Assembly: GCA_947179485.1 (NCBI GenBank)
Contig: OX359245.1
Coordinates: 24,415,067-24,479,066, forward strand
From: Allacma fusca
Taxonomy: Eukaryota; Arthropoda; Collembola; Symphypleona; Sminthuridae
Length of the DNA stretch: 64,000 bases
Direction: 5' to 3'
Below, one piece after another: positions 10,598-57,934 of this stretch. Numbering within the stretch: position 1 is the stretch's first letter; each line of letters starts with the position of its first letter. Under the pieces are notes generated by a model. It saw only the letters and a program-made list of their open reading frames with translations, did not search any database and had not been told where the DNA came from. The translations under genes were made by a program, and so were the position numbers.

Positions 10598-11514
10598 GAG
10601 AACTCCGTAATCCTCCGAGACTCATACAGTCGCAGCCCCAAAACCCACAAGGCGTACATTGCTGTGTACGTATGTATGTGCACGAAGGCAGTCCACTTGG
10701 AACTTGTCAGCAACATAACCTCCGAGGCCTTCCTGGCATCCCTACGAAGACTAGTGTCGACCAGATGTTCACCAGTCACCATTAGAAGCGACAACGGTTC
10801 CAATTTCATTGGCGCTAATAGAGAGCTCCAGGAGATCCTCAAGGAGGTAAAATCAAAAAAAATCAATAAGCAAATCTCTAATGCCCTAGTTGCAGATGGA
10901 ATCTCGTGGATTTTCAACACACCTGCAGCTCCTCACATGGGTGGCCTGTGGGAAGCTTCAGTCAAGTCAGCAAAGTTTCACCTTCACCGAGTCCTAAAAA
11001 ATGCGCCATTAAATTTTGAAGAATACGCAACGGTCCTCAAAGAAATTGAAGCGTGTTTGAATTCTCGTCCACTATGTCCTCAATCATCCGACCCCGATGA
11101 CCTGGAAGCCTTGACTCCTGGACATTTTATCATTGGTGGCCCATTAAAAAGCATCCCAGAGCCCGACCTAACAACCGTGAAAGTAAACCGCCTTAATAGA
11201 TGGCAACACCAGCAGCAAATGAAGCAACACTTCTGGCGTAGGTGGCATCTGGAGTATCTTCAGCACTTACAAAAAAGGACGAAGTGGAAACTACCTCAAG
11301 CCAACGAAAGGTTGGAGATCTAGTTGTCCTCCGAGAAGATCATTCTCCACCTCAACATTGGAAGCTCGGGAAAATAGAAGAGGTGCATCCCAACGACAAG
11401 GACGACAAGAAGCTCATCCGCACAGTGACGGTAAGAACTGCTGATGGTAACTTCAAGCGACCTATCACTCGTCTAGTGCTACTTCCCTCCCTAAGTGAAA
11501 ATGATAGTGAGTGA
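10598..11514 (+). pseudogene. BEL/Pao integrase C-terminal fragment
   Basis: The 10595-11323 ORF has RSPKTHKAYIAVYVCM, TKAVHLELVS, the second catalytic aspartate (IRSDNGSNFIGA) and the glutamate box PHMGGLWEASVK, followed by LTPGHFIIGGPL, all classic for BEL/Pao integrase. The first catalytic aspartate and everything upstream are missing. A frameshift near 11310 moves the C-terminal domain (KVGDLVVLREDHSPPQHW, then RPITRLVLLP) into the ORF at 11242-11514. It is therefore a truncated, frameshifted remnant joined on its left to an unrelated non-LTR reverse transcriptase. Confidence 0.85.
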
Positions 11515-23939: not shown

Positions 23940-24720
23940 CAACTGGACAAGCTTGAATTTGGTGTTCCACTTGAAACGCTAACAGTACAAGTAACTTGAT
24001 TGCCTTTACTTCAAGTGCAACTTGACACAATTCGAGGGCAGGTAGGACTTAAAAAGTTTCAAGTTCAAGTAGAATTTGGTAAGATTCATGTTACACTGTC
24101 ACCTGAAAAGTTTCAAGTTCAAGTTCCACATGAAAGTTTCAAGTTCAAGTTCCACATGAAAGTTTCAAGTTCAAGTTCCACATGAAAGTTTCAAGTTCAA
24201 GTTCCACATGAAAGTTTCAAGTTCAAGTTCCACATGAAAGTTTCAAGTTCAAGTTCCACATGAAAGTTTCAAGTTCAAGTTCCACATGAAAGTTTCAAGT
24301 TCAAGTTCCACATGAAAGTTTCAAGTTCAAGTTCCACATGAAAGTTTCAAGTTCAAGTTCCACATGAAAGTTTCAAGTAGAATTTAGCAAGATTCAAGTT
24401 CAAGTAGCACATGAAAGTTTCAAGTAGGATTTTGCAACATTCAAGTTCAAGTAGCATTTTACAAGATTCAAGTTCAAGTAGCATTTTGCAAGATTCAAGT
24501 TCAAGTAGCATTTTGCAAGATTCAAGTTCAAGTAGCATTTTGCAAGATTCAAGTTCAAGTAGCATTTTACAAAATTCAAGTTCAAGTAGCAGTTTACAAG
24601 ATTCAAGTTCAAGTAGCAGTTTACAAGATTGAAGTTCAAGTAGCATTTGGAAAGTTCAAATAGAATTTGGCAAGATTCAAGTTCAAGTAACACTTTAAAA
24701 CCTTCAAGTTCTGCCACCCG
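23940..24720. repeat. Two adjoining tandem repeats of 26 and 27 bp sharing the core TTCAAGTTCAAGT
   Basis: From about 24110 to 24376 a 26-bp unit (CACATGAAAGTTTCAAGTTC plus six bases) is repeated about ten times almost perfectly. From about 24400 to 24630 a 27-bp unit (AAGTAGCATTTTGCAAGATT plus seven bases) is repeated about eight times. Both share TCAAGTTCAAGT, the same word that fills the ends of the hAT element at 1584-2832. The phantom Ser- and Leu-rich ORFs here come from the repeat, not from a gene. Confidence 0.85.
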
Positions 24721-26260: not shown

Positions 26261-27768
26261 GGATCCAAATGCAGATTCTGTATTGGCATTTAACTCGTCC
26301 CCAATCGAGCACAAGCAGCGGCTCGGCCTCACCACCTCTGTTGGATCGTCAACGTGACATAATCCCTCCGAGTACCGTCATTCCGCGAAGTCGTGATTCC
26401 AATTTTCTACTTAGCTCCTCCTCCCCTCTACTAGTTAGTTCGCAATTGATTGCTACACCAGGACTGGAGCGTCCGGCTGAATTTACCTCATCAATGTCTG
26501 TGCAGTACAACTTCCTGCAACAAGCCCTCCTTGAAGATGGCCCTCCTTCCACCAACTCCACTTCCCTCAATCAGTCTGAGTACCAGGGTGAGAACCTACC
26601 GAATTACTTCGTCCTGCATGAAAATGGAGCTACATACGTTCAGAGTGATGACATGGAGGACATGTGCACAACAGCTGCACCAATTGTCATCAATGGAAAC
26701 AGCGGTCAAGAGCCCTCTGATGACTCGGATGATGACCGACCACCTGGTCAACACCGGAATAATCGGAAAAGAAAGAATCCCCCAAGCTCCGACAGTGAAG
26801 AGGAGGTATCTTCATCCTCGACCAGTGATTCAGAAAATAATTCCGAAGAAGATCCCAACAATTTTGAACAGGATTCTTTCGGTTATGATAAGCCTCTGCT
26901 AAGCAGCGGACGTGACCCAGTGTTAATTGTGAATTTGTATGAGTCTAAAATTGGGTATACTTTCTGTGCTTATGTTCCTGGAGAAGGTATTCACCCCCCA
27001 TCACACCTCATTCCCTTTAGTGAACGTTATCTTCTAGATTGTATTGACAGGGGTGTCATTCCTATGAAAATATTGTCAAAATTCGAAGAACGTGATGGGA
27101 TTTACTTGATTAAGAATGGAAATCAAGTAATCGTGGAGATTAGGGATTACCGCAGATTTCCTGGACTGACATTTGGAAATAAGCCGGTAACCAACCAGGT
27201 TATCCTGCATCAAACAACTCAAACTATACTCTCGGATGTGGATATTATTGTTAGCAAAGGTTTTACTGATCGGAGAGGCTGGAAAAGATTACGAAAATTA
27301 AGAAACAGCAGTGAAGATTATGATCGGTCAGATTCGGAAACGGATGAGGAGGAAGAAAGACTGTATTCAATGGAGCACGATACGCTTTCGTACGACCAGA
27401 AAATGGAAATAGAGAAACTTGTAGTTAATTCTATTGGCGGTCCACTCTGCTTAGATCCATCTCCAATGGTAGGTTTCATTCACAATAGAATACAGTTTTC
27501 TAGGCTTAAGTGGAACACTAGGGAGATTCAACGGAAGGCTCAGTTAGCATGGGCTGCAGTGGAAGAAGAAAGTATTCAAGAGGAGCCGGAGAAGGAAGAA
27601 GATCAGGTGGACGAATTTTTTAAGCCAACCAAAGAACCCATTCTTAGTTTGCAGAATGGAAGGACAGACTTCATACCTTTTTTTAACTTCGTCATGGATG
27701 GAAGATCGAAACTTAACAAGACTTTGGAGAAGGAGAACCAAGATGAAGTGCTAAGATTACCACCAGGA
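26261..27768 (+). CDS. SUPT20H: SPT20 homolog (SAGA complex subunit), 5' coding exon
   Basis: SPT20 is a scaffold subunit of the SAGA histone acetyltransferase co-activator in the nucleus. The ORF from ATG 26269 has a Ser/Pro- and acidic-rich start (residues 1-210, with SDSEEE and SSSSTSDSENNSEED). The SPT20 domain follows from about residue 214: VLIVNLYESKIGY, then VIVEIRDYRRFPG, then GGPLCLDPSPMVGFIHNR and LKWNTREIQRKAQ. The order and the LCLDPS and EIRDYR blocks match metazoan SPT20. The exon starts after an acceptor at 26259-26260, so more N-terminal sequence may be upstream. It ends CCAGGA|GTAAGT in phase 0. It is on the plus strand inside the opsin intron. Confidence 0.85.
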
Positions 27769-28041
27769 GTAAGTTAATACATATTATGCATTAACTAATT
27801 TTTTTACAAATGCTATTCCTGGAAGTATTTGTATATTATTTATGAATGACGCAGTAGGTAGTCCACTAACTATAGTTTTAATTTAAACACATATTGTATT
27901 TATTATGTTAGTATTAAATTGCAAGCCTATTTGTGTTAATTATTGCTAAGAACAAAATTAATGTTTCATTGTATCTATAGATAATTATTTAAACTTGGAT
28001 AACGCTGTTCAGTACAGGTAAATTTCCATTTATATTTTCAG

Positions 28042-30780
28042 TGTAATATTGAAGAGCCTAATCATCACTTCACCGTCAATCCTGAAGACATAGCAAAACT
28101 GGGCGCAACCCCTGAGCCGTCAGTCCTTCGCCCATTACCGAACGAAAATTTCATCAAAAAAGTTGAAGAGTACACATTAGAAACAGAACGTCGAAAGCGA
28201 CCTCACACAACCAAGCTCTCCATCTACCAACGCAATGGGATCGAGTGTTACTTCGGAGAATTGGAAATGGAGTCCTTCGGTGACCCGGCTACAATTAAAG
28301 GCAAGCAGAACCCGGCTTTGTCGGATCATAACCTCCCCAGTACAAAATGTCAGTTTGAGTTGGGCTGTAGCCGGAGTGTCACCTTATATGTGAAACAGTT
28401 TTCTGATATCTTCACGGAAGATGGTCGACGTCCGTGCAAGATCACATATCAAAAAATGGGTCAGCCCCCACATATTGTCTTTGTAAATTCTTACAAAAGT
28501 CAGCCCTCTTCAACTGTGACAGCGGTGACACCTACGACCTCTGCTGTTACGAACTCGTGCACGACCACCACAACAACGACAAATATAGTGACTCCAAGTT
28601 CAACCCTGGCTACCATACGTGCTGCAGTTGTTTCAGCAACACCCATTCCAGTCACAGTTTCCAACTCGACTCCTATGTCTGTGCAGAAGATAGCTCCAAC
28701 TGTTGGTCCTGTTATAGCAACAGTTGTTCCTGCATCTCCAGTTACCACTGCAAATACCCCTGCACCTGTAGTAACTTCCCAGTCACAACCCCCAGTGCAG
28801 ATAGTTCACCCGCAACCACGGCCAGTACAACAACCCACTTCCACCGCCACAGTTCAGGTTCAGATCCAGCCACAAACCCAGCAAATATCTCAGATCTACA
28901 CGGTTGCTGCACCCAACAGTGTTACTATCCCGACATCTACCAATCCCTCCGCAAATGTTAACTTCAACCTAAACCTTAATTCGGGAATAGTGGGCATATC
29001 CCCTCAACAAGTTCTCACTCGGCCTCATATATTCAATGTAAATCTTCAGCAACCTCAAACTCAGTCTTCCAGCCCAAGATTAGCAATTCAACAACAGCAG
29101 CAGAGGTTCACAATTCAGCAACAACAACAAAGGCTTACTATTCAGCAACAGCAGCAACGTCTTACTGTTCAGCAACAACAACAGAATAGTATTCGAATTA
29201 AACAGCCGACCTTAGCCACATTACTACTCACTAACATTCACCCTAACTCTGGGTCTAAGCCTATAACTGTTGCAATCCAACCTCAACCCCAGAATGTTAA
29301 TTTGGCAGGTAACAATAATATGGGTTCTCCTATTCTGACGTCACCCCTGGATCAGAATATGACCTCTCCAATTATGATAACTTCTCCCAGTCCATCCGCG
29401 TCAACCACTGTAAATCACCCGAACAGTGTTAGCGTAAATTTGAATGCAATTAGTCTCGATGGCCAGATTATTGCTGTGAGCTCACATGGAACAACCCTGC
29501 AACCTGGCGCTACCTACCATGTAGCTCATCCTAATACTATGGGAACAGGGACTGTAAACTCAGTGACTCCCCTCAGCTTCTTCAGACTGAATACCCCTCA
29601 GCTTCAGAGGCAAGGAAATACTCTCAGTATTATGAACCCTCAAGGAATCATCATTTCCAATGGGGGTTCCACAAATACTGTTGCTGGTATTCCACAAACC
29701 AAATCAGCCAGTGACTTGCATCCGGTCGATGAGATCTCAGTCCCAGATTTGAATGCTCTACTGAACTCGCAACAGCAGCAGAAGAATTTGGATGGGTTAA
29801 ACCTCAACCTAAATTTGAATCTTAATTTGAACCTACATGGCGCTGGAAATTCTGAAGTTGTATTTGATCAAAGTAATACCGGGCAAAAACAAGCACAGCA
29901 ATCATCATCGTCTAAACAAAATGTTGTGACGCTGGATGCTGCCACTAGAGCGTCTTTGGAAGAGTCTGGAATGAGTGTGGTAGGAGTGGAATCATTCTAC
30001 AACTTTCAAGAGGTCAGTCAGGATTTAAACCAGAAACTTGATGGTCCTAGCAATGTCAACATTGCTACATCCAGTCTTTCCCCGACGAAGAACTATGTGG
30101 CCAGCACTACTGGAATGACATCCAGCTCCATGATAACCCTCAATGACCTCCTAGGGTCACCACCCATTGCCGTAGTGAGTTCCTCTACACAGTCCCCGAA
30201 TATGAATTTGCTCAGCCCTGTATCATCGTCAATAGCTTCCTCCACCCCAAGACTTTCTGCTTTGTTAGCAGGCACACCCTCTGCTGATACTGTGACTGTA
30301 ACCCCTGATGGGGGAATTTCAATAGTAGATTCGTCAACGGCTCCCTCAAACTACGGTAACCTTCTGGACCGGCTTGCAGCGAGTTTGTCCCAACAGCAAA
30401 GTGGGAGTATAGCTCGAGTGGCGGGAAGTAGACTGAATCCAATTGCAACTGCAACTCCTAATGTAGTTTTGGAACATCCGATGTTAGCAGCAACTCTGAC
30501 CCAACAAGGGAACATCGTGGTGAATACTGGGGTTTCCACTGGTGGTGTAAGCATTGCGAATCGACCGACGGCATACAGACAAATAGCTCCTGCACCTCCT
30601 CCGGGTACTCAAACTCATCAAACACAGTCTCACCAACTAATCAATCTATTGGGCATGGGATTGGTGAATACTTCCGGAGCTAACAACACACCCCCGACTA
30701 TTAGAATCAGTGCGTCACCTTCGAATACAGCCAACAGTTCCAGTAATGCTGCCACTAATGTTAATTTAGGTAGTCGGTGA
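28042..30780 (+). CDS. SUPT20H: SPT20 homolog, 3' coding exon (Gln/Ser/Thr-rich C-terminus)
   Basis: Acceptor TATATTTTCAG at 28041, phase 0, open for 912 codons to TGA. It starts CNIEEPNHHFTVNPEDIAKL and contains KLSIYQRNGIECYFGELEM, the block that in SPT20 reads as a KLTILQ...YYGK segment closing the conserved region. The rest is low-complexity: Thr-rich (28500-28620), four blocks of IQQQQQR type (29080-29190) and LNLNLNLNL (29797-29850). Such Gln-rich tails are typical of SPT20. With the first exon the protein would be about 1412 residues, nearly twice the human protein. Only a 273-bp intron separates the two exons. Confidence 0.87.
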   Translation, partial: CNIEEPNHHFTVNPEDIAKLGATPEPSVLRPLPNENFIKKVEEYTLETERRKRPHTTKLSIYQRNGIECYFGELEMESFGDPATIKGKQNPALSDHNLPSTKCQFELGCSRSVTLYVKQFSDIFTEDGRRPCKITYQKMGQPPHIVFVNSYKSQPSSTVTAVTPTTSAVTNSCTTTTTTTNIVTPSSTLATIRAAVVSATPIPVTVSNSTPMSVQKIAPTVGPVIATVVPASPVTTANTPAPVVTSQSQPPVQIVHPQPRPVQQPTSTATVQVQIQPQTQQISQIYTVAAPNSVTIPTSTNPSANVNFNLNLNSGIVGISPQQVLTRPHIFNVNLQQPQTQSSSPRLAIQQQQQRFTIQQQQQRLTIQQQQQRLTVQQQQQNSIRIKQPTLATLLLTNIHPNSGSKPITVAIQPQPQNVNLAGNNNMGSPILTSPLDQNMTSPIMITSPSPSASTTVNHPNSVSVNLNAISLDGQIIAVSSHGTTLQPGATYHVAHPNTMGTGTVNSVTPLSFFRLNTPQLQRQGNTLSIMNPQGIIISNGGSTNTVAGIPQTKSASDLHPVDEISVPDLNALLNSQQQQKNLDGLNLNLNLNLNLNLHGAGNSEVVFDQSNTGQKQAQQSSSSKQNVVTLDAATRASLEESGMSVVGVESFYNFQEVSQDLNQKLDGPSNVNIATSSLSPTKNYVASTTGMTSSSMITLNDLLGSPPIAVVSSSTQSPNMNLLSPVSSSIASSTPRLSALLAGTPSADTVTVTPDGGISIVDSSTAPSNYGNLLDRLAASLSQQQSGSIARVAGSRLNPIATATPNVVLEHPMLAATLTQQGNIVVNTGVSTGGVSIANRPTAYRQIAPAPPPGTQTHQTQSHQLINLLGMGLVNTSGANNTPPTIRISASPSNTANSSSNAATNVNLGSR

Positions 30781-39266: not shown

Positions 39267-42200
39267 AATGGTGAAGAATACCTGTAGCTGCTCTCTCTGT
39301 GATAAGAAGATCCAAAAAAAATGTGCTTTATCTGTGTTGCTTTTTGTGCAAGGAAACGTTCCATAGAAAATGCCATGATATTGGCTTAGCTCTATATCGT
39401 AGCACAGATCATGATCTATGGTCTTGTAAAACGTGTGTATGTGTTGGTTCGGATTTAAATACGAGTTTATTGAATATTGATTGCAAAGTTTCTGCTGTGA
39501 TCCCTGAACCTATTACGCTACATGCTCATACGCTTCCACGTAAAGTTGCTAAATTTTTGTATTTGAACATCAATAATTTTTCATTACATAAGTTTGAGGA
39601 ATTGAAATACTTTATTCTTGACAAAACTTTTGATGTAGTCGCCCTCGTTGAAACATTTTTTGACACAAAGACAAACATTTTCCTATATGACATACCTGGG
39701 TACAACCTACTGACACATAATAGAAAGACAAACAAAAAAGGTAGTGGATTGCTTCTATACCTTCACAAACGTATACGATACAAGTTTCTTGACTTCCCCA
39801 TTGAAACTCATAATTCAAATGTTGAATACTCAGCGTATAAGATTGGATTATCTGAGTATCAGTCTGTTATAATTATTCTAATTTATCGACCTCCGTCCAG
39901 CTCAATAGAAAAATTCCTACTTTTCATGGACAGTCCGTTCAAATATCTAGCCACACTCTCTACACACTGCATGATATTTGGTGATATCAATATTGACCTC
40001 TCTAAACCTAACCTGGAAACAATTAAGCTGGTCTCCTGTCTCAATATGTATAACTATAAGCAGATAATTGATATACAGACTCGTAGTGTTAGGTAAAAGG
40101 CCTGCCAGCTCACTAATTGACCATCTCTATATTCCGACACATAAACACATACAATGGAAAACTTCTACAACTGGACTCTCTGACCATGACATGATCTTAT
40201 TTGAGTATTCATTTAAAAATATTACTTCTAATAACACTACAGTGATTCAGTTTAGGGACTTCTCGAACTGTGACTGGAATACTTTAAATACTGCGATATG
40301 CAAAATTCATTGGAACTTTCTTTGTAATGACAACTACTCCATTGACTTTATCTACAATATTATAAGTACGACCTTAAGGGTTTTACTAGATGAGGTTTTA
40401 CCAATGAAAAGTATGAGGGTAAAAGCACGTTCCAAAACTTGGGTTACTAAGTACATATGTGAATGTACAACGAATAGGGATGCAAGTAAACAGAACACTA
40501 GACTAAACTATGTCCAACGACCCCTCCAAATGGGCTGAGTACCGTTGTTTGCGAGCAAAAGTAAAGCATGAAATATACAATGCTAAGCGTAATTTTTTCC
40601 AGGCAGAGTTGACTAAAAATGAACATCATCCTAAACGGTTGTGGAGTGTAATAGATTTGGTTCTTGGGAGACAGCGTAAATCCCCTTTAAATATTCAAAA
40701 ACTCTATATTGACTCTAGTCATAAGTCTAGTGTATGTAATACTACTGATATCTGTGATGTACTAGCTGAATCGTTTACTGTCCCATGCTCTTATGTTGAT
40801 AATGACTTACTTTTGTTTAAGCCTGTAGATACTATATGTGAGGAAATTAACGCTAAGGAGATATGGAGTGCTTTCAGTGGATTGAAACCTAAAGGCACTG
40901 CACACGATACAGTGAACTATAAAGTATTTGGTAAGGCTTCCATTGTCACACCTGTGCTGATACTCTTCAACCTAATACTTATGCATGGTTCTTTTCCATC
41001 TTACTTTAAAACTGCTATTGTCACCCCTGTATACAAAGGAAAGGGAAGCGTAAACAGTGCTGATTCATATCGCCCTATTCATTCGTTACCTTTTCTAAAC
41101 AAGTTATTTGAAAAGATAATCTACAAAAGGCTAATAAGGCAGTGTAATAGTCTCATTGATGAAAATCAGCACGGGTTTCGACGTGGAAGGTCTTGCTTTA
41201 CAGCAGTCTTTGTGTTTATACATAAATTATGTACATTCCTTGGAAACCCATTAGTTAAAGTCCTTGCCGTGTTTATAGACCTTCGTAAAGCATTTAACTC
41301 TGTATCTCGCATGCTATTACTTCAGAAAATTCAGAAAAACTTTAAATGTGATGTATATATACTAAGGTTGTTGGCTGACTATCTACATGACAGGAAATTT
41401 AAAATTGTTGTAAATAACACTACCTCTAAGTTATACATTGACGTCAATGGTGTCCCACAGGGATCTATACTTGGTCCTTTACTATTCATTTTGTTTTTCT
41501 CTGATATAAGCACTTGCTTAACATTGGATTATGTTGCGTATGCTGATGATCTGGTTTTATTTATGTACGACACTTGTCTAGATAAACTATTCTGTGGGAT
41601 GCAGCATTGGTTAAATAAGTTATGTACATGGATGAGTGACAATTCACTCACTATCAACGTTGACAAAACTATGTATGTTATTTACAATAAGTCTAGGTCC
41701 AATCCTGAAACCGAACATCGCCTCTTTATTCACAACACCGAGATAAGTCGTGTATGGAGTTTTAAGTATTTGGGAGTTCATATTGACGATAAACTCAACT
41801 TCAATGAGCATTTTAGCTATGTCATCAATAAGGTTTCCAAGTCTATGGGTGCTATTTTGAGAGCAAAACTTAGTCTATGTGAAAGGTCTTTGCGTCAACT
41901 TATCAATTCGTTTGTCTTTTCTCATATAGATTACTGCATTCTTGTATGGTGCAGCGTATGTAAATCTAAATTGAGCTTACTCCAAAACAAAATTGACAAG
42001 TGCCTTATTTTACTGTATTCTCCGAAATCTAAACTAAAGTGTATCTGTCCACTATCGTACATTTATGAGACATTCAACATTCTTACTGTCTCCGAAAGGG
42101 TTATGTACTATGGCTGCAAACTTGTTTTCAGTATATCTCATCTTGGTCACCCCATTAATTACATAAATGGTGTCTTCTTGTTCAAGTTTACCCCGACTCG

Positions 42201-42405
42201 TCTTCGCTGCTCCACTAATATAATACTTTTTCATCCCTTGGTCAAAACAAGTGTATCTACAAAGAATATTTTATATTTTTGTGTAAAATTTTTTAATGAA
42301 TTGCCCTCTGCTCTGCGGCTTCGTGAATCTGTTTTCAGAGTGTTTGAGAAAATGCTGATTAAGCATATTCTTGTTAGACGTAATGACTCTTTAATTTCAA
42401 ACTGA
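39267..42405 (+). pseudogene. CR1/L2-like non-LTR retrotransposon ORF (PHD finger, endonuclease, reverse transcriptase)
   Basis: From ATG 39267 the frame gives a Cys-rich start (NTCSCSLCDKK), shifts at an A-run near 39300, and continues CCFLCKETFHRKC...WSCKTC, together a PHD-type C4HC3 pattern. An apurinic-type endonuclease follows (LYLNINN, VALVETF, IYRPPSSS, FGDINIDL, then GLSDHDM). The reverse transcriptase is intact from 40510 to the stop (631 codons), with HGFRRGRSC, VFIDLRKAF, GVPQGSILGP and the catalytic YADD box. Frameshifts at about 39300, 40090 and 40509 break the single long ORF. The 3' UTR ends in a TAA-repeat tail at 42511-42534, interrupted by a DNA element. The copy at 12747-14155 belongs to the same family. 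Clade assignment within the CR1/L2 group is tentative. Confidence 0.85.
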
Positions 42406-47037: not shown

Positions 47038-48864
47038 GTCATGTGACTACTAGTGACACAGTAGGTCAATCTGAGGTCATGTGACTACTAGTGACACAGT
47101 AGGTCAATCTGAGGTCATGTGACTACTAGTGACACAGTAGGTCAATCTGAGGTCATGTGACTACTAGTGACACAGTAGGTCAATCTGAGGTCATGTGACT
47201 ACTAGTGACACAGTAGGTCAATCTGAGGTCATGTGACTACTAGTGACACAGTAGGTCAATCTGAGGTCATGTGACTACTAGTGACACAGTAGGTCAATCT
47301 GAGGTCATGTGACTACTAGTGACACAGTAGGTCAATCTGAGGTCATGTGACTACTAGTGACACAGTAGGTCAATCTGAGGTCATGTGACTACTAGTGACA
47401 CAGTAGGTCAATCTGAGGTCATGCGACTATTAGTGACACAGTAAGGTCAATCTGAGGTCATGTGACTACTAGTGACACAGTATGGTCAATCTGAGGTCAT
47501 GTGACTACTAGTGACACAGTATGGTCAATCTGAGGTCATGTGACTACTAGTGACACAGTAAGGTCAATCTGAGGTCATGTGACTACTAGTGACACAGTAA
47601 GGTCAATCTGAGGTCATGTGACTACTAGTGACACAGTAAGGTCAATCTGAGGTCATGTGACTACTAGTGACACAGTAAGGTCAATCTGAGGTCATGTGAC
47701 TACTAGTGACACAGTATGGTCAATCTGAGGTCATGTGACTACTAGTGACACAGTATGGTCAATCTGAGGTCATGTGACTACTAGTGACACAGTATGGTCA
47801 ATCTGAGGTCATGTGACTACTAGTGACACAGTATGGTCAATCTGAGGTCATGTGACTACTAGTGACACAGTATGGTCAATCTGAGGTCATGTGACTACTA
47901 GTGACACAGTATGGTCAATCTGAGGTCATGTGACTACTAGTGACACAGTAAGGTCAATCTGAGGTCATGTGACTACTAGTGACACAGTAAGGTCAATCTG
48001 AGGTCACGTGACTACTAGTGACACAGTATGGTCAATCTGAGGTCATGTGACTACTAGTGACACAGTATGGTCAATCTGAGGTCATGTGACTACTAGTGAC
48101 ACAGTATGGTCAATCTGAGGTCATGTGACTACTAGTGACACAGTATGGTCAATCTGAGGTCATGTGACTACTAGTGACACAGTATGGTCAATCTGAGGTC
48201 ATGTGACTACTAGTGACACAGTATGGTCAATCTGAGGTCATGTGACTACTAGTGACACAGTATGGTCAATCTGAGGTCATGTGACTACTAGTGACACAGT
48301 ATGGTCAATCTGAGGTCATGTGACTACTAGTGACACAGTAGGTCAATCTGAGGTCATGTGACTACTAGTGACACAGTAGGTCAATCTGAGGTCATGTGAC
48401 TACTAGTGACACAGTAGGTCAATCTGAGGTCATGTGACTACTAGTGACACAGTAGGTCAATCTGAGGTCATGTGACTACTAGTGACACAGTAGGTCAATC
48501 TGAGGTCATGTGACTACTAGTGACACAGTAGGTCAATCTGAGGTCATGTGACTACTAGTGACACAGTAGGTCAATCTGAGGTCATGTGACTACTAGTGAC
48601 ACAGTATGGTCAATCTGAGGTCATGTGACTACTAGTGACACAGTAGGTCAATCTGAGGTCATGTGACTACTAGTGACACAGTAGGTCAATCTGAGGTCAT
48701 GTGACTACTAGTGACACAGTAGGTCAATCTGAGGTCATGTGACTACTAGTGACACAGTAGGTCAATCTGAGGTCATATGACTACTAGTGACACAGTAGGT
48801 CAATCTGAGGTCATGTGACTACTAGTGACACAGTAGGTCAATCTGAGGTCATGTGACTACTAGT
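47038..48864. repeat. 38/39-bp minisatellite, about 47 copies
   Basis: The unit GTGACTACTAGTGACACAGT plus AGGTCAATCTGAGGTCAT repeats head to tail with very few substitutions. A 38-bp form (CAGTAGG) occupies about 47040-47430 and 48330-48864. A 39-bp form (CAGTATGG or CAGTAAGG) occupies about 47430-48330, with a single 39-bp unit near 48608. It is interrupted on the right by the LTR retrotransposon and resumes at 57797. Confidence 0.97.
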
Positions 48865-49395
48865 TGTGGGAAATGTAGAGTTGAGTTCAAGCCAGCTATG
48901 TACTCTGGACCGCGAATCTGGGGAAGGAGTATTGTACAAATATAATGTATTACTCACACCCAAGCTCTCATTCCGCACAAGTGCATGTGATGCTGGATTT
49001 GTGAAATAATGCTCAGTATGATTAGATTTTTATAGAGATGATTAATAGTTAAGATCGAACTCAAAACCAAGGTATGTCTCTGCCGGGAGCTTCGGTGAAA
49101 ACTATGCCCAATAAATAAGGAGCCGGACCGACTTGAGTCTAAATAATACACTACGTTTAATCCTCTAAACAACAGTATTCAATTTGTGGTTACAAATAAT
49201 ATCGGTCTCAAGCCTTGTTCGCAGTTTGGTCGCTCGGTCCGAACTGACGGGCGACTTGCAAAACACCACCATATATATATATATGAATAAGTACATGTAA
49301 CTAATTGTAAGTTGGAGCCTTGCCGGCTTAAGGGAATGCATTGGGACTATGGAGGTAGGGATCGCTCCGAAGGTGAGAGGGCACAGCTCCTCACA
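48865..49395 (-). repeat. 3' LTR of the Ty3/Gypsy element
   Basis: 531 bp with TGTG...CACA ends. It is identical to the other LTR apart from a TA run at about 49271-49283 that is two bases shorter. On the minus strand it is preceded by the purine-rich GGGAGTG, a weak polypurine tract. Confidence 0.95.
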
Positions 49396-49429
49396 CACTC
49401 CCGGGTGAAATTTTGAAATTGTTAAAATT

Positions 49430-50995
49430 TCACAGGCGCTGTCTACGGGTTCCCAGGGACAGGAAATCTCTTCGGGCTTTCTTCTCTCTGACTTTAACCC
49501 CGCTTCGGTGACGGTTGGCCTGAGTCAACTGCTCTCGGGTCATCTTGAGTCTGTTTGGGACCTTCTGAAATTGACAATCCCGTCTCAGGTGACCTACTCG
49601 GCCACATCTCCCGCATTTTCTAAGATCGGGTCCACTGAATCTACTAGGTCCGGGTTGACTGATAGTAACAGAACGTTCCTCATCTACAACTAGGACAGTG
49701 AGATTGGGGTTTTCTGGATAACTTTCAGAATTATTGGAAGTTCCTGCATGTAAGACAACGGTGTCGTTGTTGTTGACTACCATGGTTGAGATGGACGCGG
49801 CGTCGTCCAAGACGGCGCTTACGCTCATAGTATGTGTAGTAGCTTCGTCCAGATTGATAGTCGGATCCTCTATAATTTCGACGTCGTCGTCGTCCCTCCC
49901 CGCATTTGGAATGGGTTGTAGGGGGCCATTGAGGATTTCGGACAAGCAGTGGACATTAGCGAAAGCTGGGCTTGCGAACCGTACGCTTGCGCTAATTGAA
50001 ATGACAGAAATGGGTCTTGGTAAAGATAAAAGCATGTGAAATTCTTCTTCCTTAAGAACGTCTTGCGTAGGCAGATCTTCATCTTTTGCAGTCTGGGTGC
50101 GCCAAGCTGAGATTAGCATGGAGATTCGGACTTCGTCTTTGGCCAGGGTCCGTTTAAGATGTGTCTGGAGTTTTTTGATGACTTGAACTGGTTGGTGTTC
50201 GTCTAAAAATGCTGAATAAAAACCGACGTTGGTGGAATGTTCTTTCACTTCCCAAGATTTTAAGTATTGGGTCATTTTCCTAACTTCCTCCGGGCCTTTC
50301 TCAAATATTTTTGATCTGATTTTTGACCAAATCAAAAGCGTTTGGCGGGCATAAAATGACGCCCATTGTTGGCTCTGGAGTGAGGAGTGGTTTTTGAACC
50401 AGTTATTTACGTCCGGGAATTTCTCGAGAGCTGTGAAGCAATATAAATTTGAAAGCTCCACGAAACTTATTGGTTTGGAGAATGCTTTTACATTATACAA
50501 AAACCAGTGAGATAATTTAATATCCACGAACGGATATAGAACCGAATCGAAATCTCTGAACAAATATTTACAGATACGTGGGATATTGTAAATGACTTTA
50601 ACAATGTTGGGATTTTCGAAAATATGCTTAAGTTTCGTCATTGCGAAGTCTCTTTCGGAAAACATTGGTACTACAAAATTGTGAGTATCACAAGCAATAG
50701 CGACAACAACAGTAAATCCAATTCCGAATGTGTTATTAACTTGTGAATATAGAAAAATACCAATCTCCGGTTTCTGCATCACAGTATCAAACATGGATGT
50801 TAACAGGGCTCGTTTGTTACAAAACATTAAGGGGACATGCTGATCGTACGAATAACATAATGATTGGGAAGCTGGAAAATTCCATTCTTCTACAACGCTT
50901 TTCTGTTGGACGCTCAGCTTAAATTCCCCGTGGTTGTTGATCTTTCGCATGTGGTCTCGTAACCATGGGTGGCCATCGTGTGGTCTAAAATCCAT
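49430..50995 (-). CDS. ORF3 of the Ty3/Gypsy element: degenerate RNase D/EXD1-like exonuclease domain plus CCHC knuckle
   Basis: An intact 521-residue ORF stands where env would be, 447 bp after pol and 34 bp before the 3' LTR. It has no signal peptide, membrane segment or furin site. Residues about 74-225 follow the layout of DEDD 3'-5' exonucleases of the RNase D/EXD1/Egalitarian type: PEIGIFLYS at strand one, LKHIFENPNIVKVIYNIPR, then FVDIKLSHWFL, SFVELSNLYCF, and a closing WASFYARQTLLIW. The acidic residues expected in DxE, the second Asp and the YxxxD box are absent, so it is predicted inactive. An acidic linker follows, then a CCHC zinc knuckle CGRCGRVGHLRRDC (461-474) and a basic tail. 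RNA binding is likely; a role in packaging or in interfering with host small-RNA pathways is speculation. The domain call is by eye. Confidence 0.6.
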   Translation of the reverse strand: MDFRPHDGHPWLRDHMRKINNHGEFKLSVQQKSVVEEWNFPASQSLCYSYDQHVPLMFCNKRALLTSMFDTVMQKPEIGIFLYSQVNNTFGIGFTVVVAIACDTHNFVVPMFSERDFAMTKLKHIFENPNIVKVIYNIPRICKYLFRDFDSVLYPFVDIKLSHWFLYNVKAFSKPISFVELSNLYCFTALEKFPDVNNWFKNHSSLQSQQWASFYARQTLLIWSKIRSKIFEKGPEEVRKMTQYLKSWEVKEHSTNVGFYSAFLDEHQPVQVIKKLQTHLKRTLAKDEVRISMLISAWRTQTAKDEDLPTQDVLKEEEFHMLLSLPRPISVISISASVRFASPAFANVHCLSEILNGPLQPIPNAGRDDDDVEIIEDPTINLDEATTHTMSVSAVLDDAASISTMVVNNNDTVVLHAGTSNNSESYPENPNLTVLVVDEERSVTISQPGPSRFSGPDLRKCGRCGRVGHLRRDCQFQKVPNRLKMTREQLTQANRHRSGVKVREKKARRDFLSLGTRRQRL

Positions 50996-51442
50996 AATTT
51001 ACTTTTTTCAAAGCACAAGATAGCCTTATGCTGAAGTTCCGGCGCAAGTGTCCCTTGCGCCTATACTAAACTAATAAGCAGCAAAATTTAAAGGCAGCGA
51101 GGGTAATTAAAGGGGTTAATCCGCTCCGCTCCTAAGAAGCAAAAGAAATAAAAGAAAATTAACACTGGTATACTTTCTCGATAGTTAAAAAAAACGATTA
51201 GTACGATTGTGCGATCGACTTCTTATATTAGTTAAGTACACTACCATCTACGCGAAGGATTAAAATATATTTAAAAAAAAATTAAAAATTCTGCCCATAT
51301 ACATGCGTTACTGAAAAAAAAATGTACATCAGCGGGTTCAATGCTTACATGACACCAAGGGTGTGCCTGTTAAGCTTATTCTATGGAGCATGTTTGTAAA
51401 AAAAATAGACTACAATTGCAATTACTATTGGCCAAAAAAAAA

Positions 51443-54400
51443 CTAATCGAAATACTCGAGTGAATTCATACAAAGTGACAATGCATCATCTTCCCTGACC
51501 AAACGAGCGAAAGTAACTTTCTTCCTTGGTCTCAAATTATATTTAGCTTTCTCTTTGCTCTTTATTGTTTCTGTTGCAACTGGGCTGTTACTAGTATGTT
51601 TTTTTGAAGCCAAGATTTCCACATTTGGGAAATCTCTGTTATCTCCGGCCTTATCGTGCCTGCTTTTAAAAACATTAGCTCTAGTAGATTTATTCGGATC
51701 TTCGTGATATGGTCTAAAATGGTAAACGTGGTGAACTCCAAATGGGTTGCCAGTTTCCTCCTGCTTTAATTCGAAAGTTAAACCTGGAACTATTTCTCGC
51801 ACAAGTGTGAATGGACCACACCATTTTTTGCTAAGTTTCTTAGAAATTTTTTCATCCGCGCTGGATAACGTATGTGTTCTTAGTAGAACTCTGTCTCCTA
51901 CTCTGAATTTGCTAGCCTTCCTATGTTTATCGTAAATTTTTTTCTGGGCTAAATAAGCGTCTTCCATGTTTTTTAGAACCCATAACCGCAGTTCTCGTAG
52001 CTCAATGGGTAGCCATCGGGCCACATTCAAAGGATCTGTTTTCTCTTTAATTTGAGATTGCATTTCTCTATCAATGGGCAATTTAATTTGCCTGCCGAGA
52101 TTCAGTATGTCCGACCCGCAGCCAAGTGAATCTCTAACCATTGACCTTAAGGTTAGTGCGAATTTTTGTAAATGCTTATCCCAATCAAATTGTCTCTTCG
52201 AACAGAATGCAGTTATCATAGTTTTGAGATCTCGATTTGATCTTTCAACCTGATTGCCTTGGGGATGGTAATAAGCAATGCGTTTATGGATAACGCCCCA
52301 TCGATCACATAGTTGTTCGAAAATACCTGACTCAAAGTTCGTGCCATGGTCGGTAATTATCTTTGAAGGGAAACCAAATCGACAAAATACGTTATCCTCT
52401 AAGAAGTCTACTATGTTTTTTGCCTTAGCATTTCTTAGTGGATGAACTTCTATCCATTTTGAAAATTCATCTTGTGCGACTAAAATATATTCGTTTTGTT
52501 TTTGTGTTCTAGGTAAGGGGCCAATGATATCAACAAAGATAGTATCCATTACATCTGCTAGCTTATGGTTATGTCCCATTAAACCGGAAGGTGCCTGGTT
52601 CGAGGCCTTCGTTATCTGGCATACCTCACAAGATTTCACAAAATTTCGAATGTCAGCAGTCATACCTTTCCAATAGAATCTACTCATAATTATTCTTCTA
52701 GTCTTTTTGTAGCCGAGGTGCGCACATTCCGGCACATCATGAAAGCACGATATAATTTTTGAAACCATACTCTTTGGTACAATGGGTACGAGAATTGTTT
52801 TCTCCTCAATATCTCGTATTTTATTTTGGGACAACGCCCGTCTAGACCAACTTTCTTTATCGACGTCGTTGAGGTTTACGATATTCATTGTATCTAACCT
52901 CTTCTCTAAGATAGCTATCCTCGCGCAACTCTCTGTTGCGCGAGACCCTTTGCAAGAAGGAGGATCACTTTTTAACCTCTCTAACCTATCTTTAAGCACA
53001 CCTAGTGCCTGGCTATTCTTGCTGTCTGTATCGAGGGTTTGACTTATACATTGTGTTGACATGGAATTTCTAATTTTCCTCACCTCGAACATGCTATATT
53101 TTGGTACTCTTTTGCATAACAAATCGCCGACCATTTGATATCTCATATCCTTTAATGATTTATGTTGGTTACCTGCGTCTAATGCAGTTGGTTTCTCAAT
53201 AATTACCAACAGTTCTGGATCTGATTTTTGGGCAGTCACTAAATTCTCACGTTTGATGTCGGAAGCTAAGTAATTAATACATGGAATGTGTTCACCATCT
53301 GCTATGTCATCCAGGAGTTGATCAATCTCCTGGGTGTCCATAGGTGCTCTGCTGAGCATATCTGCAAGAATATTGTCCTTGCCTTTAATGTGAACCAAAT
53401 TGTAATTGTGTTCTTCTAACTCTAAGCTCCACCTTTCAACCTTAGCCTTCCTGCTAGGATTAGTTCTCATCCAAGTGACAGCCTGATTATCAGTTTGGAC
53501 TATGATCTTATGGCCTGCAATTAGGTCTCTAAACTTCCGTAGAGCCCACACTATAGCGTAACATTCTTTTTCGTAAATTCCCCATTTCCTTTGACCTGGG
53601 TTTAGTAAAGCGCTACGACACTCGATAATTCTTTCCTTTCCATCAATATCTTGTTTTAAAACTGCACCAATTCCTAAATCGCTGGAATCGGTCTGGACAA
53701 TAACTGGGTAATCGTAGTCGATCCCTTGCAAGAAAACTTCTGTTTCCATTTCCTGCTGAATCTTACGAAATGCCGATTCCTCCTTATTGTCCCATCGCCA
53801 CCTTATGCCCTTTTTTGTTAAATCGTATAGGGGCGCGGCGATGGTGGAAAAATTCTTCACGAAAGTTGAGTACCAACCTGACTTTCCTAAAAATCTCTGC
53901 ACATCTTTAGCGTTCTTAGGTACTCGAAAGTCCCTAATACCCTGTATTTTGTCTGAGCTGCGCTTAAGACCTTGTGGAGTGATTATGTGTCATAGGAACT
54001 CTGTTTCCTGTACGCAAAATTCGCTTTTTTCTACATTTAGGGTAACACCGGCTTGCCGTAATATTGAAAATACAATGTGAAGGTGTTTCAAGTGCTCTTT
54101 GTAGGTTTTTGAGTATATTAAACCATCGTCTAAATAGCACATAATAAACTTATATAGATGTTCGCTAAACGCATAATTTATGAACTGTTGGAACGTGTGA
54201 CCTGCATTACACAGTCCAAAAGGCATTTTCACAAATTCCCAATGTGCGCCGCCAGGCACACTGAAAGCTGTTTTTGGAATTGACTCCTCATCTAATCTGA
54301 TCTGGAAGTAACCGTTCTTTAAATCGAATTTTGAAAACCATTTGTAAAGTGGGATCATTCGTAGCATCCATTGTAAATTTGGCATTGCTGCTGCATTCTT

Positions 54401-55222
54401 TTTCGTAATGCGATTTATTGGTTTAAAGTTCAAACACAGTCTAACCTTTCCGTTTTTCTTCTTAGCTAAGACTATATTCGAATTGTAAGGTGACCTAGAT
54501 CTACGAACTGTCCTGGCTTCGACTAATTTGGCCACTTCTTCGTTGATGAGTCTTAATTTAGCTGGGGGAAAGCCATATATTTTTGCCTTTGGGATGGGAT
54601 CATTTGGTGCATCAATGTGGTGATAAACCCAATCGGTACAACCGTAACTGTCGTCTGTTGGGCAAACGTCCCTAAATTCTTCTAATAATCTTTCTACGTC
54701 TCGTTTAATCTGCTCTTTAGAAGGGTTGTCCTCAAATTCAACTGCAACCTTTAAACTGAAAATGCCTTTAGCATTAGTATTTATTTCGAAAGGATCGTTC
54801 GGTGGTATTAGACCATACCAGAAATATCCTTGATTTAAATTAAAACTTAAGTCGTTCTGTGAAATAAAATCTTTCCCGAGTATTAAGTCGGTTCCGCATT
54901 CCAACTTTGACATTATGTGAAAATTCCATTCAATCTCTCTGTCACCAAATCTAAAAGGTAAAATTATCGTTCCTTTGAATTTGATTGTATCACCGGAGGC
55001 AGTAACAAATTTGCCAGAAGGGCTTGTACGAATATTGAAAGGTAATTGAGATGCTAATCGTTTCGTAATACAGCACCTAGAACAAGCAGTGTCTATCAAT
55101 GCTCGGATATTCTTCTTATCTATATTCAAACTAGTTGTTGGAGGACTATCATTGTTAGTAAGTGGAACAAGTAACAAATTTGGAGTAATCTGACTATCCT
55201 GCAAAGGTGTTTTAAAGTCTAG
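51443..55222 (-). pseudogene. Ty3/Gypsy pol (protease, RT, RNase H, integrase), interrupted by one stop
   Basis: In the same frame as gag and directly after its stop. The protease box is LIDTACS (about residue 37-42 from 55204). Reverse transcriptase motifs run through KVRLCLNFKPINR and the catalytic YLDD (about 357-360). A TGA at 53992-53990 then stops the frame, which reopens in the same frame and stays open to 51443. RNase H (VQTDSSDLGIG), the integrase zinc region (HLGYKK...CEVC) and the D, D, E core residues (FVDIIGPL, ITDHGTNF, VERSNRD) follow, then a GPF-type C-terminal domain. About 100 Ser/Lys-rich residues are inserted between the RNase H tether and the integrase. No Met precedes the protease, which fits expression as a Gag-Pol fusion. 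Confidence 0.93.
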
Positions 55223-55225
55223 TCA
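55219..55225 (-). promoter_or_regulatory. Gag-pol readthrough stop context TGACTAG
   Basis: The gag stop codon UGA is followed by CUAG. UGA-CUA is an established readthrough-promoting context in alphavirus and some cellular genes. Pol is in the same frame and has no AUG before the protease, so readthrough is the simplest way to make it. Confidence 0.65.
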
Positions 55226-56623
55226 ATCTGACTCCGAGGTATCGACAATAGCTGATGGGCATTGAAATTTGACATGGCCTTCGCCGCCGCACTGCCAACA
55301 GTTTACTTCCGTATGTTGGAATGACATTGCAACGCCTTTGACCTTGCTAGAGCAGTTCTTTTCCTCGTGTCCAAACCCTCGACAGTGTTTGCATTTCTGA
55401 CCTAAGTTAACCTTGGCCTTATTCCTATCGAAAGTGAACTTTTTAGAATCGGATTTCTGCCCTTTATCGTTCAACTTGTCTTGCTTATTTCCATCATTTC
55501 CATTCTTATGAAAATTGCTCTTGCCCTTGTTTCTCTGGAATCTGTTCTTATGCCAACCTCCCTTCTGGCCATTGCCTTGGCTAGAAGTAGCTTGGCTATC
55601 CGCAGCCTTTGAACCTTTATCGTCTTTGGCATCTTTGTCCGGCATTTCATGCAAAGGAGGTAACTTGATTTTTCCCTGATTGGTAAACTTTTGTCCTTTA
55701 TGCAAGCTTCGGAGTGCATCCTCAGCTGCTGCTATGAGTTTCCCTGGAGTTGGGTCTGCCATATCAGGGTCCCATCTGATTACCTGATAAATGGAATTAT
55801 GCAAGCCATAATATGCTCTACGTAATGTTTCAGTAATATTTTCCGTAGGGCACACTTGATTAGCCAAAAATACCATCTCGTAAACATAAGATGAGACAGA
55901 TTCATCAAATCTCTGGGTTTTTGTGTAAAGTAATTTGTTCCTTTCTCTCTGATCGAATGGAGTATCGAATTCCTCTTTGAATTTCTTTTTTAGGTCGTCC
56001 CAACCTGTAGCTCTAGTAACGATGTTATGGTACCATTTCAAAGTTTCGCCTGTCATAACCGTACCAGCTAGATATAGAAATTTGTCCTGCTTATGATGTT
56101 GAGCCTCGAAAAACTTTTCTAACTGGGTTAAATAATGCTCAGAAGTCATTCGTTTCTTGTCGTAACTAGGAACAGGTAGTGAGGATGTTGAAACTACAAC
56201 ATTAGCTGAAGCCGTTGACATTGCTTTCGCTACCGTTTGGCAAGCTTCGGCAGCTTTTGTTACTGCATCTAACTTCGCCTGTTCAGCATAGTCTTGGACA
56301 TACTTCTTTTGGGCATCACTGAGACTATTGAAAAATGCTTGAGCCATCTCTACAGGGTCTAGATTAGAACTCGAATCGGAATCTGAATCTGAATAGTAAA
56401 TACTGTTTGGACTATCGGGGGAATTCAAATTTTCCGAACTATTTGTTCGATTAAGATTACCAGAGTTAGGTAATTTATCTGGCTCTGGGGATGTGGCCTG
56501 ATTTTTGTATGTACCTTGATCCCTTAAACATTTACGAATATACCTATCACTTGACTTATCAAAATTCTCTGAGCTTTGCTCAATAATTTGTTTATCAGCA
56601 GTGACCTTCTTTCCGCTCGACAT
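55223..56623 (-). CDS. Ty3/Gypsy gag (capsid and two CCHC zinc knuckles)
   Basis: 466 residues from ATG 56623. It forms the virus-like particle and binds the element RNA. An acidic Ser-rich start is followed by a retrotransposon capsid domain (about 150-290: LTQLEKFFEAQ, GETLKWYHNIV, LKKKFKEEFDTPFDQ). After a Lys/Gly/Asn-rich linker come the zinc knuckles CKHCRGFGHEEKNC (411-424) and CWQCGGEGHVKFQC (442-455). It ends at TGA (55225-55223), which is followed by CTAG, a known leaky stop context, and pol continues in the same frame. Confidence 0.95.
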   Translation of the reverse strand: MSSGKKVTADKQIIEQSSENFDKSSDRYIRKCLRDQGTYKNQATSPEPDKLPNSGNLNRTNSSENLNSPDSPNSIYYSDSDSDSSSNLDPVEMAQAFFNSLSDAQKKYVQDYAEQAKLDAVTKAAEACQTVAKAMSTASANVVVSTSSLPVPSYDKKRMTSEHYLTQLEKFFEAQHHKQDKFLYLAGTVMTGETLKWYHNIVTRATGWDDLKKKFKEEFDTPFDQRERNKLLYTKTQRFDESVSSYVYEMVFLANQVCPTENITETLRRAYYGLHNSIYQVIRWDPDMADPTPGKLIAAAEDALRSLHKGQKFTNQGKIKLPPLHEMPDKDAKDDKGSKAADSQATSSQGNGQKGGWHKNRFQRNKGKSNFHKNGNDGNKQDKLNDKGQKSDSKKFTFDRNKAKVNLGQKCKHCRGFGHEEKNCSSKVKGVAMSFQHTEVNCWQCGGEGHVKFQCPSAIVDTSESD

Positions 56624-57244
56624 AAAGGAAAAAAATTCGTTGCAAATGCTGACTAATTTCCTTAACAGAACTGAACTTGATTGTTTAAAATGGAGTTGTT
56701 TGAATTTTTTTGTCTAGAAATATACAAAACCGTGGCCTGGAAATGTGAATCTTTCACGCGTGGCGACCTTAATGTACTTATTTCTAGGACTGCTATGCTA
56801 ATGCTTCTCGTTGTACAATTCAAGCACTAGCAAACACTAATTTTCATCCGTAAATACTCCAAAAAAAATTTTTTCGCAGCGACTGTTCGTTTTTACTGGG
56901 TTGAACATTACCTTAATTGATTGACTATGAAATTAACCATCTATTCATCTTAAAACATTGTTATAAAATAACGTCTTATCGGACCTCTGTAACCTGCAGT
57001 AATAAATACCTCTGATTTTCGAAACTAGCTGACCTGAATAAGTACAGATTTGTCTAGTTTAAATGCCTTCTACGTCCAGTTAAATAAAATTATGGCTCAA
57101 GTTTCCCTTAGGCCAAGTAGCTAAGATTGGCCTCTTAGCTTTATAAAACTTACGGGGATGTACAATCTGTAGATGGGTACTGCTTACTGTTGGGGTCAAC
57201 TGGGGTCACGCTCGCTGGTCATGACAACTTAATTCCGAAAGTCC

Positions 57245-57261
57245 GTTAGTCACGGTCGCCA
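57245..57261 (-). promoter_or_regulatory. Primer-binding site, probably tRNA-Arg
   Basis: Two bases inside the 5' LTR the minus strand reads TGGCGACCGTGACTA. It starts with the TGG that pairs with a tRNA CCA end. The same TGGCGACCGTGAC string is used by the Drosophila 412/mdg1 group with tRNA-Arg; that match is from memory. Confidence 0.65.
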
Positions 57262-57263
57262 GT

Positions 57264-57796
57264 TGTGGGAAATGTAGAGTTGAGTTCAAGCCAGCTATGT
57301 ACTCTGGACCGCGAATCTGGGGAAGGAGTATTGTACAAATATAATGTATTACTCACACCCAAGCTCTCATTCCGCACAAGTGCATGTGATGCTGGATTTG
57401 TGAAATAATGCTCAGTATGATTAGATTTTTATAGAGATGATTAATAGTTAAGATCGAACTCAAAACCAAGGTATGTCTCTGCCGGGAGCTTCGGTGAAAA
57501 CTATGCCCAATAAATAAGGAGCCGGACCGACTTGAGTCTAAATAATACACTACGTTTAATCCTCTAAACAACAGTATTCAATTTGTGGTTACAAATAATA
57601 TCGGTCTCAAGCCTTGTTCGCAGTTTGGTCGCTCGGTCCGAACTGACGGGCGACTTGCAAAACACCACCATATATATATATATATGAATAAGTACATGTA
57701 ACTAATTGTAAGTTGGAGCCTTGCCGGCTTAAGGGAATGCATTGGGACTATGGAGGTAGGGATCGCTCCGAAGGTGAGAGGGCACAGCTCCTCACA
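57264..57796 (-). repeat. 5' LTR of the Ty3/Gypsy element
   Basis: 533 bp, otherwise identical to 48865-49395 with one additional TA in the TA run near 57670. It carries the element promoter by family expectation; no TATA box was assigned. Confidence 0.95.
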
Positions 57797-57934
57797 TAGT
57801 GACACAGTAGGTCAATCTAAGGTCATGTGACTACTAGTGACACAGTAGGTCAATCTAAGGTCATGTGACTACTAGTGACACAGTAGGTCAATCTAAGGTC
57901 ATGTGACTACTAGTGACACAGTAAGGTCATGTGA
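57797..57934. repeat. Minisatellite, right-hand continuation
   Basis: Three and a half 38-bp units continue directly after the LTR element. All three full units read CTAAGG where nearly all of the left-hand units read CTGAGG. The block ends in degenerate GGTCATGTGACCTC and CACATGACA sequence to about 58100. Confidence 0.92.

Follow-up and report, generated by a model that had tools for sequence, protein, structure and literature searches.

Our analysis indicates that the third open reading frame (ORF3) of a recently inserted Ty3/Gypsy-type LTR retrotransposon encodes what is in all likelihood an RNase D-type DEDD exonuclease domain, that this domain is very probably catalytically dead, and that it is followed in the same protein by a CCHC zinc knuckle and a strongly basic tail. 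The element lies on the minus strand at positions 48865-57796 of the window, by which we mean the whole stretch of 64,000 nucleotides analysed here. The explanation that we favor as a whole, in which a young element carries a captured and dead DEDD domain together with a knuckle and a tail as an RNA-binding pseudonuclease, is one that we hold tentatively, a little short of an even chance. The features to which the argument refers are as follows, with positions counted within the window.

47038..48864, no strand: satellite array with a 38/39-bp unit, left flank of the element (TRF)
48865..49395, minus strand: 3' LTR (TG...CA), 531 bp
49396..49405, minus strand: putative polypurine tract adjoining the 3' LTR, sense ...CCCGGGAGTG
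49430..50995, minus strand: ORF3, 521 aa, ATG to TGA, in the env position
49433..49573, minus strand: basic C-terminal tail of ORF3, residues 475-521 (47 residues)
49574..49615, minus strand: CCHC zinc knuckle of ORF3, CGRCGRVGHLRRDC, residues 461-474 (pattern match CX2CX4HX4C)
49631..50005, minus strand: acidic linker of ORF3, residues 331-455, pI 4.1
50309..50713, minus strand: exonuclease-like domain of ORF3, very probably without catalytic acids, residues 95-229 (Pfam, our own HMM and a check for acidic residues)
50996..51442, minus strand: spacer between pol and ORF3, 447 nt, GC 0.34, with stops in all three frames
51443..53902, minus strand: downstream piece of pol, with RNase H and the zinc-binding and core domains of integrase (Pfam RT_RNaseH, Integrase_H2C2 and rve, all above cut-off)
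53990..55204, minus strand: upstream piece of pol, with protease and reverse transcriptase (Pfam gag-asp_proteas and RVT_1)
55223..56623, minus strand: gag, 466 aa, with two CCHC knuckles, in the same frame as pol (Pfam Retrotrans_gag, E 9.1e-7)
57243..57261, minus strand: putative primer-binding site TGGCGACCGTGACTAACGG, 2 nt after the 5' LTR (from sequence)
57264..57796, minus strand: 5' LTR, 533 bp
57797..57929, no strand: right continuation of the satellite (TRF)

The assignment of the element to the Ty3/Gypsy type is based on an LTR pair that begins with TG and ends with CA, a target duplication, a gag gene and a pol gene with the order protease, reverse transcriptase, RNase H and integrase, and the relatives of its pol include proteins named as Gypsy/opus elements. 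A preliminary description of this DNA had called the element recent, and we agree, judging from the two LTRs, between which a blastn comparison shows 0 mismatches and a single gap, 2 bp long and inside a TA microsatellite (99.6% over 534 columns, 3 bases of which lie outside the LTR). The element interrupts the satellite array, leaving about 47 copies of the 38/39-bp unit to its left and 3.5 to its right. The last 4 bp of the left satellite flank and the first 4 bp of the right flank both read TAGT, and the satellite register becomes continuous across the insertion when one TAGT is removed, so TAGT represents a 4-bp target duplication. Other repeats in the window include pieces of a non-LTR retrotransposon in separate open reading frames at 39299-42405 on the plus strand (a PHD finger and an endonuclease, both just under the Pfam cut-off, and a reverse transcriptase), pieces of a reverse transcriptase and of an integrase/DUF5641 region at 9678-11323 on the plus strand, which we take to be probably a BEL/Pao element, and tandem arrays at 24053-24711 with a unit near 26 bp of the AAAGTTTCAAGTTCAAGT type.

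The pol gene of the element is broken, as had been claimed, by a single in-frame TGA at 53992-53990, after which 29 codons are open, and it stands beside an intact ORF3. This stop sits in a copy whose LTRs carry no substitution. The stop of gag at 55225-55219 on the minus strand is a TGA followed by CTAG, with gag and pol in one frame, and passages of PMC12233894 name UGA CUA G as a high-readthrough motif, so that gag-pol may be made through stop readthrough. An RNA structure in the 101 nt after the gag stop is unsupported, with a z of 0.48 and 130 of 200 shuffles folding at least as well. The CCHC match that Pfam reports in gag scores 19.1, under the cut-off of 20.8. No dUTPase is listed between the protease and the reverse transcriptase in a Pfam scan of 53993-55204; this and our other Pfam scans were run to E 10, with filters that discard most matches above about 0.1.

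ORF3 is present exactly as had been reported, as an intact frame of 521 aa running from 50995 to 49430. Its length is not due to chance, since in 500 dinucleotide-shuffled versions of this DNA the longest stop-free stretch over six frames reached at most 208 aa, with a median of 104. On its upstream side 447 nt separate it from pol, whose stop is at 51443, and on its downstream side 34 nt separate it from the 3' LTR. The protein reads as a basic exonuclease-like region (residues 61-262, pI 9.3, charge about +7), the acidic linker, and a C-terminal part made up of the knuckle and the tail (residues 456-521) with a pI of 11.8 and a net charge of about +16. The CCHC knuckle of the preliminary description is there as a CX2CX4HX4C pattern at residues 461-474, which Pfam places below its cut-off (zf-CCHC, E 0.0056, 17.2 versus 20.8), and the 47-residue basic tail comes after it. 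A search of 49390-51470 for repeats that would mark ORF3 as a nested insertion returned nothing but short pairs, several of which are A-rich. ORF3 occurs once in the window; a second tblastn match at 31503-31333 (26% over 57 residues, E 0.047) was taken as chance. Two further matches were disregarded, one to the Pfam family REC104 at residues 389-447 (E 0.011, under the cut-off) and one to PHROGs at residues 360-415 (E 0.022, outside the domain).

The preliminary description had also proposed that ORF3 contains a DEDD exonuclease-like domain, and sequence comparisons bear this out. Residues 95-229 match PF01612 (DNA_pol_A_exo1, 3'-5' exonuclease) at E 2.3e-6 and 28.0 bits, above the cut-off of 23.6, and at E 1e-6 in a scan restricted to residues 1-300. 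The NCBIfam RNase D model TIGR01388 gives E 9.6e-4 and 18.5 bits, far under its equivalog cut-off of 299. A phmmer search of solved structures to E 10 listed 15 sequences, the best being Rrp6 4nlb (E 0.0072), which we take to be the trypanosome protein; most of the remaining ones match the knuckle. Scored with a profile of our making, based on 16 RNase D/PolA-type domains from bacteria, ORF3 reaches 18.7 bits versus 6.9 for the best of 2000 shuffles, and a single BLASTP comparison with E. coli RNase D gives E 0.002 with 21% identity over 84 columns. One comparison was not significant: hhalign with an RNase D profile scored ORF3 at 20.97 and residues 1-300 at 17.94, and the maximum among 60 shuffles of residues 1-300 was 26.71. 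We attribute this result to the narrowness of that profile, which is built on 81 enterobacterial sequences with a template Neff of 1.76, but it still counts against homology. With all of these comparisons considered together, there is little doubt in our minds that ORF3 carries an RNase D-type DEDD domain.

The fold search that had been suggested as a check on this identity yielded models of low confidence. AlphaFold without an alignment gave a mean pLDDT of 34 for ORF3, and with an alignment of 15 rows, 14 of them RNase D, a pLDDT of 50 and a pTM of 0.44; the N-terminal part of this guide alignment looks misaligned, and its RNase D rows bias the model toward their fold. For the guided model, which is of low confidence, Foldseek returned 96 PDB matches. 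The nine at the top (apPol three times, WRN, RICE1, At5g06450, EXD2 twice, and 5zo3, listed as 'apo form of the nuclease') presumably all represent DEDD-type exonuclease domains or proteins closely related to them, but none of the nine is significant, the best E being 0.02. For the alignment-free model, likewise of low confidence, no DEDD exonuclease is found among the best 50 of 193 matches. The exonuclease homology of ORF3 is thus established at the level of sequence comparison and not at that of structure.

The claim that the catalytic acids are missing is also borne out. Residues 78-101, 134-146 and 203-231 of ORF3, the segments in which ExoI, ExoII and ExoIII fall under every register that we considered, hold zero Asp or Glu residues, versus a background of 9.3% in residues 1-300. 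In the Rrp6 alignment, which is the sole basis for the ExoI reading because the Pfam match starts after ExoI and the MAFFT alignment is unreliable there, the places of the ExoI acids are taken by Phe81 and Tyr83. The place of the ExoII Asp is Ile141 in the same alignment, and the alignments with E. coli RNase D agree. The register of ExoIII is ambiguous, being Tyr215 in the profile alignments or Thr219 when YAxxD is placed by eye, and neither is acidic. Since none of the three segments contains an Asp or a Glu, the domain is very probably dead. The codons of Phe81, Tyr83 and Ile141 are each at least 2 base changes away from Asp or Glu. Given these distances and LTRs that carry no substitution, the loss of the acids very probably predates this insertion, so that the element would have moved with the domain already dead.

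These observations suggest a history in which an RNase D-type DEDD exonuclease domain was captured as ORF3, lost its catalysis and became linked to a zinc knuckle with a basic tail behind it. The element's own RNA would then be held by residues 61-262, which resemble an exonuclease, together with the knuckle and the tail, and ORF3 would assist the packaging, protection or localisation of the element's RNP. The protein would be expressed from a separate, probably spliced message, or started in another way, and the pyrimidine-AG sites in the spacer at 50996..51442 could serve as splice acceptors. The exonuclease-homology domain of Egalitarian is described in passages of PMC13186709 as contacting RNA via basic clusters that lie about 15 A from its putative catalytic residues. 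The parts left in ORF3, namely the basic and acid-free region, the knuckle and the basic tail, are suited to holding nucleic acid, and with Egalitarian as a precedent this suggests that ORF3 is likely to bind the RNA of the element. By this analogy an RNA-binding helper role is possible, and we would propose it with some reserve.

A serious rival, which we nevertheless consider somewhat unlikely, is that ORF3 is a functionless passenger, an exonuclease gene transduced from the host or from a retroelement, whose active site is degenerating and whose frame is open by chance or recency. This possibility gains from the codon usage of ORF3, which is unlike that of gag-pol: the RSCU correlation between the two is 0.49, compared with a minimum of 0.64 and a median of 0.75 for 500 blocks of 521 codons from gag-pol, and with 0.79 for gag and 0.77 and 0.86 for the two pol pieces when each was left out in turn. 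The GC3 of ORF3 is 0.45 versus 0.34-0.38 for gag-pol. This departure points to ORF3 having been acquired later than the gag-pol core or being differently constrained, and it counts against the helper reading because a recent passenger gene would fit it too. Codon usage gives no sign of an origin in the host, since ORF3 is no closer to the open reading frame at 28261-30777 (correlation 0.26, versus 0.54 for gag-pol), which is a poor yardstick, being rich in a few residues. That frame lies next to a probable exon of an Spt20 host gene at 26269-27777 on the plus strand (Spt20_SEP, E 6.7e-9); for the ORF at 28261-30780, which could be part of this probable gene as well, Pfam gives no match at E 0.001.

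The idea of a passenger is also favored by our search for relatives, since none was found for ORF3 in the protein collection: the whole protein gave 4602 candidates with none at E <= 1, and residues 55-262 gave 102 candidates with none at E <= 10, under a prefilter that requires shared 5-residue words and could miss distant relatives. Viral contigs yielded one pattern match and no relative for ORF3, and no relative when scanned with the pol piece and with E. coli RNase D; phage records yielded no match to residues 1-300 at E <= 1. As a control, pol gave 152 matches at E <= 1e-10 among 5733 candidates in the same protein collection, the best of the 120 listed having 54% identity across 69% of the query, so the silence of ORF3 is not due to a lack of retroelements there. 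A further point in favor of a passenger is that variation in the sequenced env-like and GDSL ORF3s of rotifers appeared mostly neutral, according to passages of PMC5408684. Against it stand the 521 stop-free codons, kept although the codons at ExoI and ExoII are at least 6 base changes away from coding for Asp or Glu, the fact that the domain is still recognisable by HMM, and its neat placement ahead of the 3' LTR. A stronger form of the helper reading would be that selection in this lineage preserves a dead DEDD domain fused to a knuckle, which would supplement gag in binding RNA, either to escort the genomic RNA or to blunt the piRNA processing of the host, and would be a transposon-borne counterpart of EXD1 or Maelstrom; in this strong form we think it unlikely.

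EXD1 and Maelstrom belong to the piRNA pathway, and ORF3 could be an antagonist of silencing that mimics such inactive DEDD proteins and disturbs piRNA biogenesis. The fold class would be the same, catalysis appears to be lost in both cases, and the carrier is a transposon in a probably animal genome, to which the Spt20 SEP domain of the ORF at 26269-27777 is a weak pointer; passages of PMC5408684 draw the analogy with EXD1 and Maelstrom for the rotifer proteins. However, OST-HTH/LOTUS, Maelstrom and Tudor domains are all absent from the Pfam matches of ORF3 up to E 10, also when residues 1-300 are scanned by themselves, and nothing that we have seen ties ORF3 to the piRNA pathway, so that we consider such an antagonist quite improbable. 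It is very improbable that ORF3 is a still active nuclease using other metal ligands: some DEDD relatives have changed active sites, Maelstrom being the example according to PMC2628886, but neither the three motif segments, with no D/E, nor the Pfam results, with no Maelstrom domain listed, speak for it. That ORF3 substitutes for an envelope in entry, exit or intercellular transfer is hardly credible, for while it has the position between pol and the 3' LTR and weak generic signals (five N-x-S/T sequons and RRQR at residue 517), it is strongly basic at the C-terminus and, in line with the preliminary description's statement that envelope features are lacking, shows no transmembrane-like stretch by hydropathy (maximum 19-residue mean 1.54) and no envelope family listed by Pfam.

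The helper reading can be set against several known systems, of which the closest are the LTR elements Juno1/2 and Vesta2/5 of bdelloid rotifers. Passages of Rodriguez, Kenefick and Arkhipova (2017, PMC5408684) describe in them, following pol, an ORF3 of the RNase D-like DEDDy type that was acquired at least twice and is shared with Athena elements, has its catalytic residues intact (DEDD changed to DEED) and lacks transmembrane or coiled-coil domains; they also report that Vesta2 and Vesta5 contain a Cys-His-Cys motif and cite EXD1 and Maelstrom as inactive RNA-binding relatives. The finding is repeated in passages of PMC5718144 and PMC6431247, and those of PMC6338049 mention DnaQ-like exonuclease domains in LTR elements. 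Like Juno and Vesta, the element described here is a young LTR element with a separate RNase D-like ORF3 between pol and the 3' LTR, TG..CA ends, gag knuckles and no transmembrane segment. In contrast to their ORF3s, compared here by description, ours appears to have lost all four acids and carries a CX2CX4HX4C knuckle followed by a strongly basic tail, and their dUTPase between protease and reverse transcriptase is not listed in our element. The Athena/Terminon Penelope-like elements of bdelloids likewise carry an accessory DEDDy ORF in a retroelement, but they are not LTR elements, and their DEDDy ORFs are described as 3'-exonucleases (passages of PMC6431247 and PMC5408684).

Among cellular proteins, EXD1 and Maelstrom resemble ORF3 in having a DEDD-derived fold without catalysis and in binding RNA, as described in passages of PMC5408684; for ORF3 the likeness is one of sequence, and RNA binding would be expected rather than observed. 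They differ in being cellular proteins, and no Maelstrom or OST-HTH domain is listed for ORF3. Egalitarian also uses a DEDD-type domain for RNA binding, with catalytic residues that are dispensable, but it has LOTUS-type domains, binds BicD and still possesses its putative catalytic residues (passages of PMC13186709), whereas no LOTUS-type domain is listed for ORF3. Two points that arise from the preliminary description are not supported: Egalitarian as a clear example of a dead enzyme, since those passages speak of putative catalytic residues, and a capture of the domain from EXD1 or Egalitarian specifically, in view of the missing OST-HTH/LOTUS and Maelstrom domains and of Rrp6 4nlb as the best structure match. 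Rrp6 (4nlb) and E. coli RNase D (rnd) are the closest sequence matches found; they are enzymes with their acids, unlike ORF3.

Titles and abstract openings of the open-licence papers listed show no LTR element whose ORF3 combines a dead exonuclease with a knuckle. If other copies of the element keep ORF3 open and dead, this would show that an exonuclease ORF3 of the rotifer type can be retained in order to bind RNA and not to cut it. This would bear on the question of Rodriguez et al. whether such proteins act in 3'-end processing or in another role, and it would offer an example, open to testing, of a transposon that employs the pseudonuclease fold of host piRNA proteins. The arrangement is an unusual variant of the published rotifer exonuclease ORF3 and not a new kind of thing; what is new, as predicted from the sequence, is the dead active site together with the knuckle.
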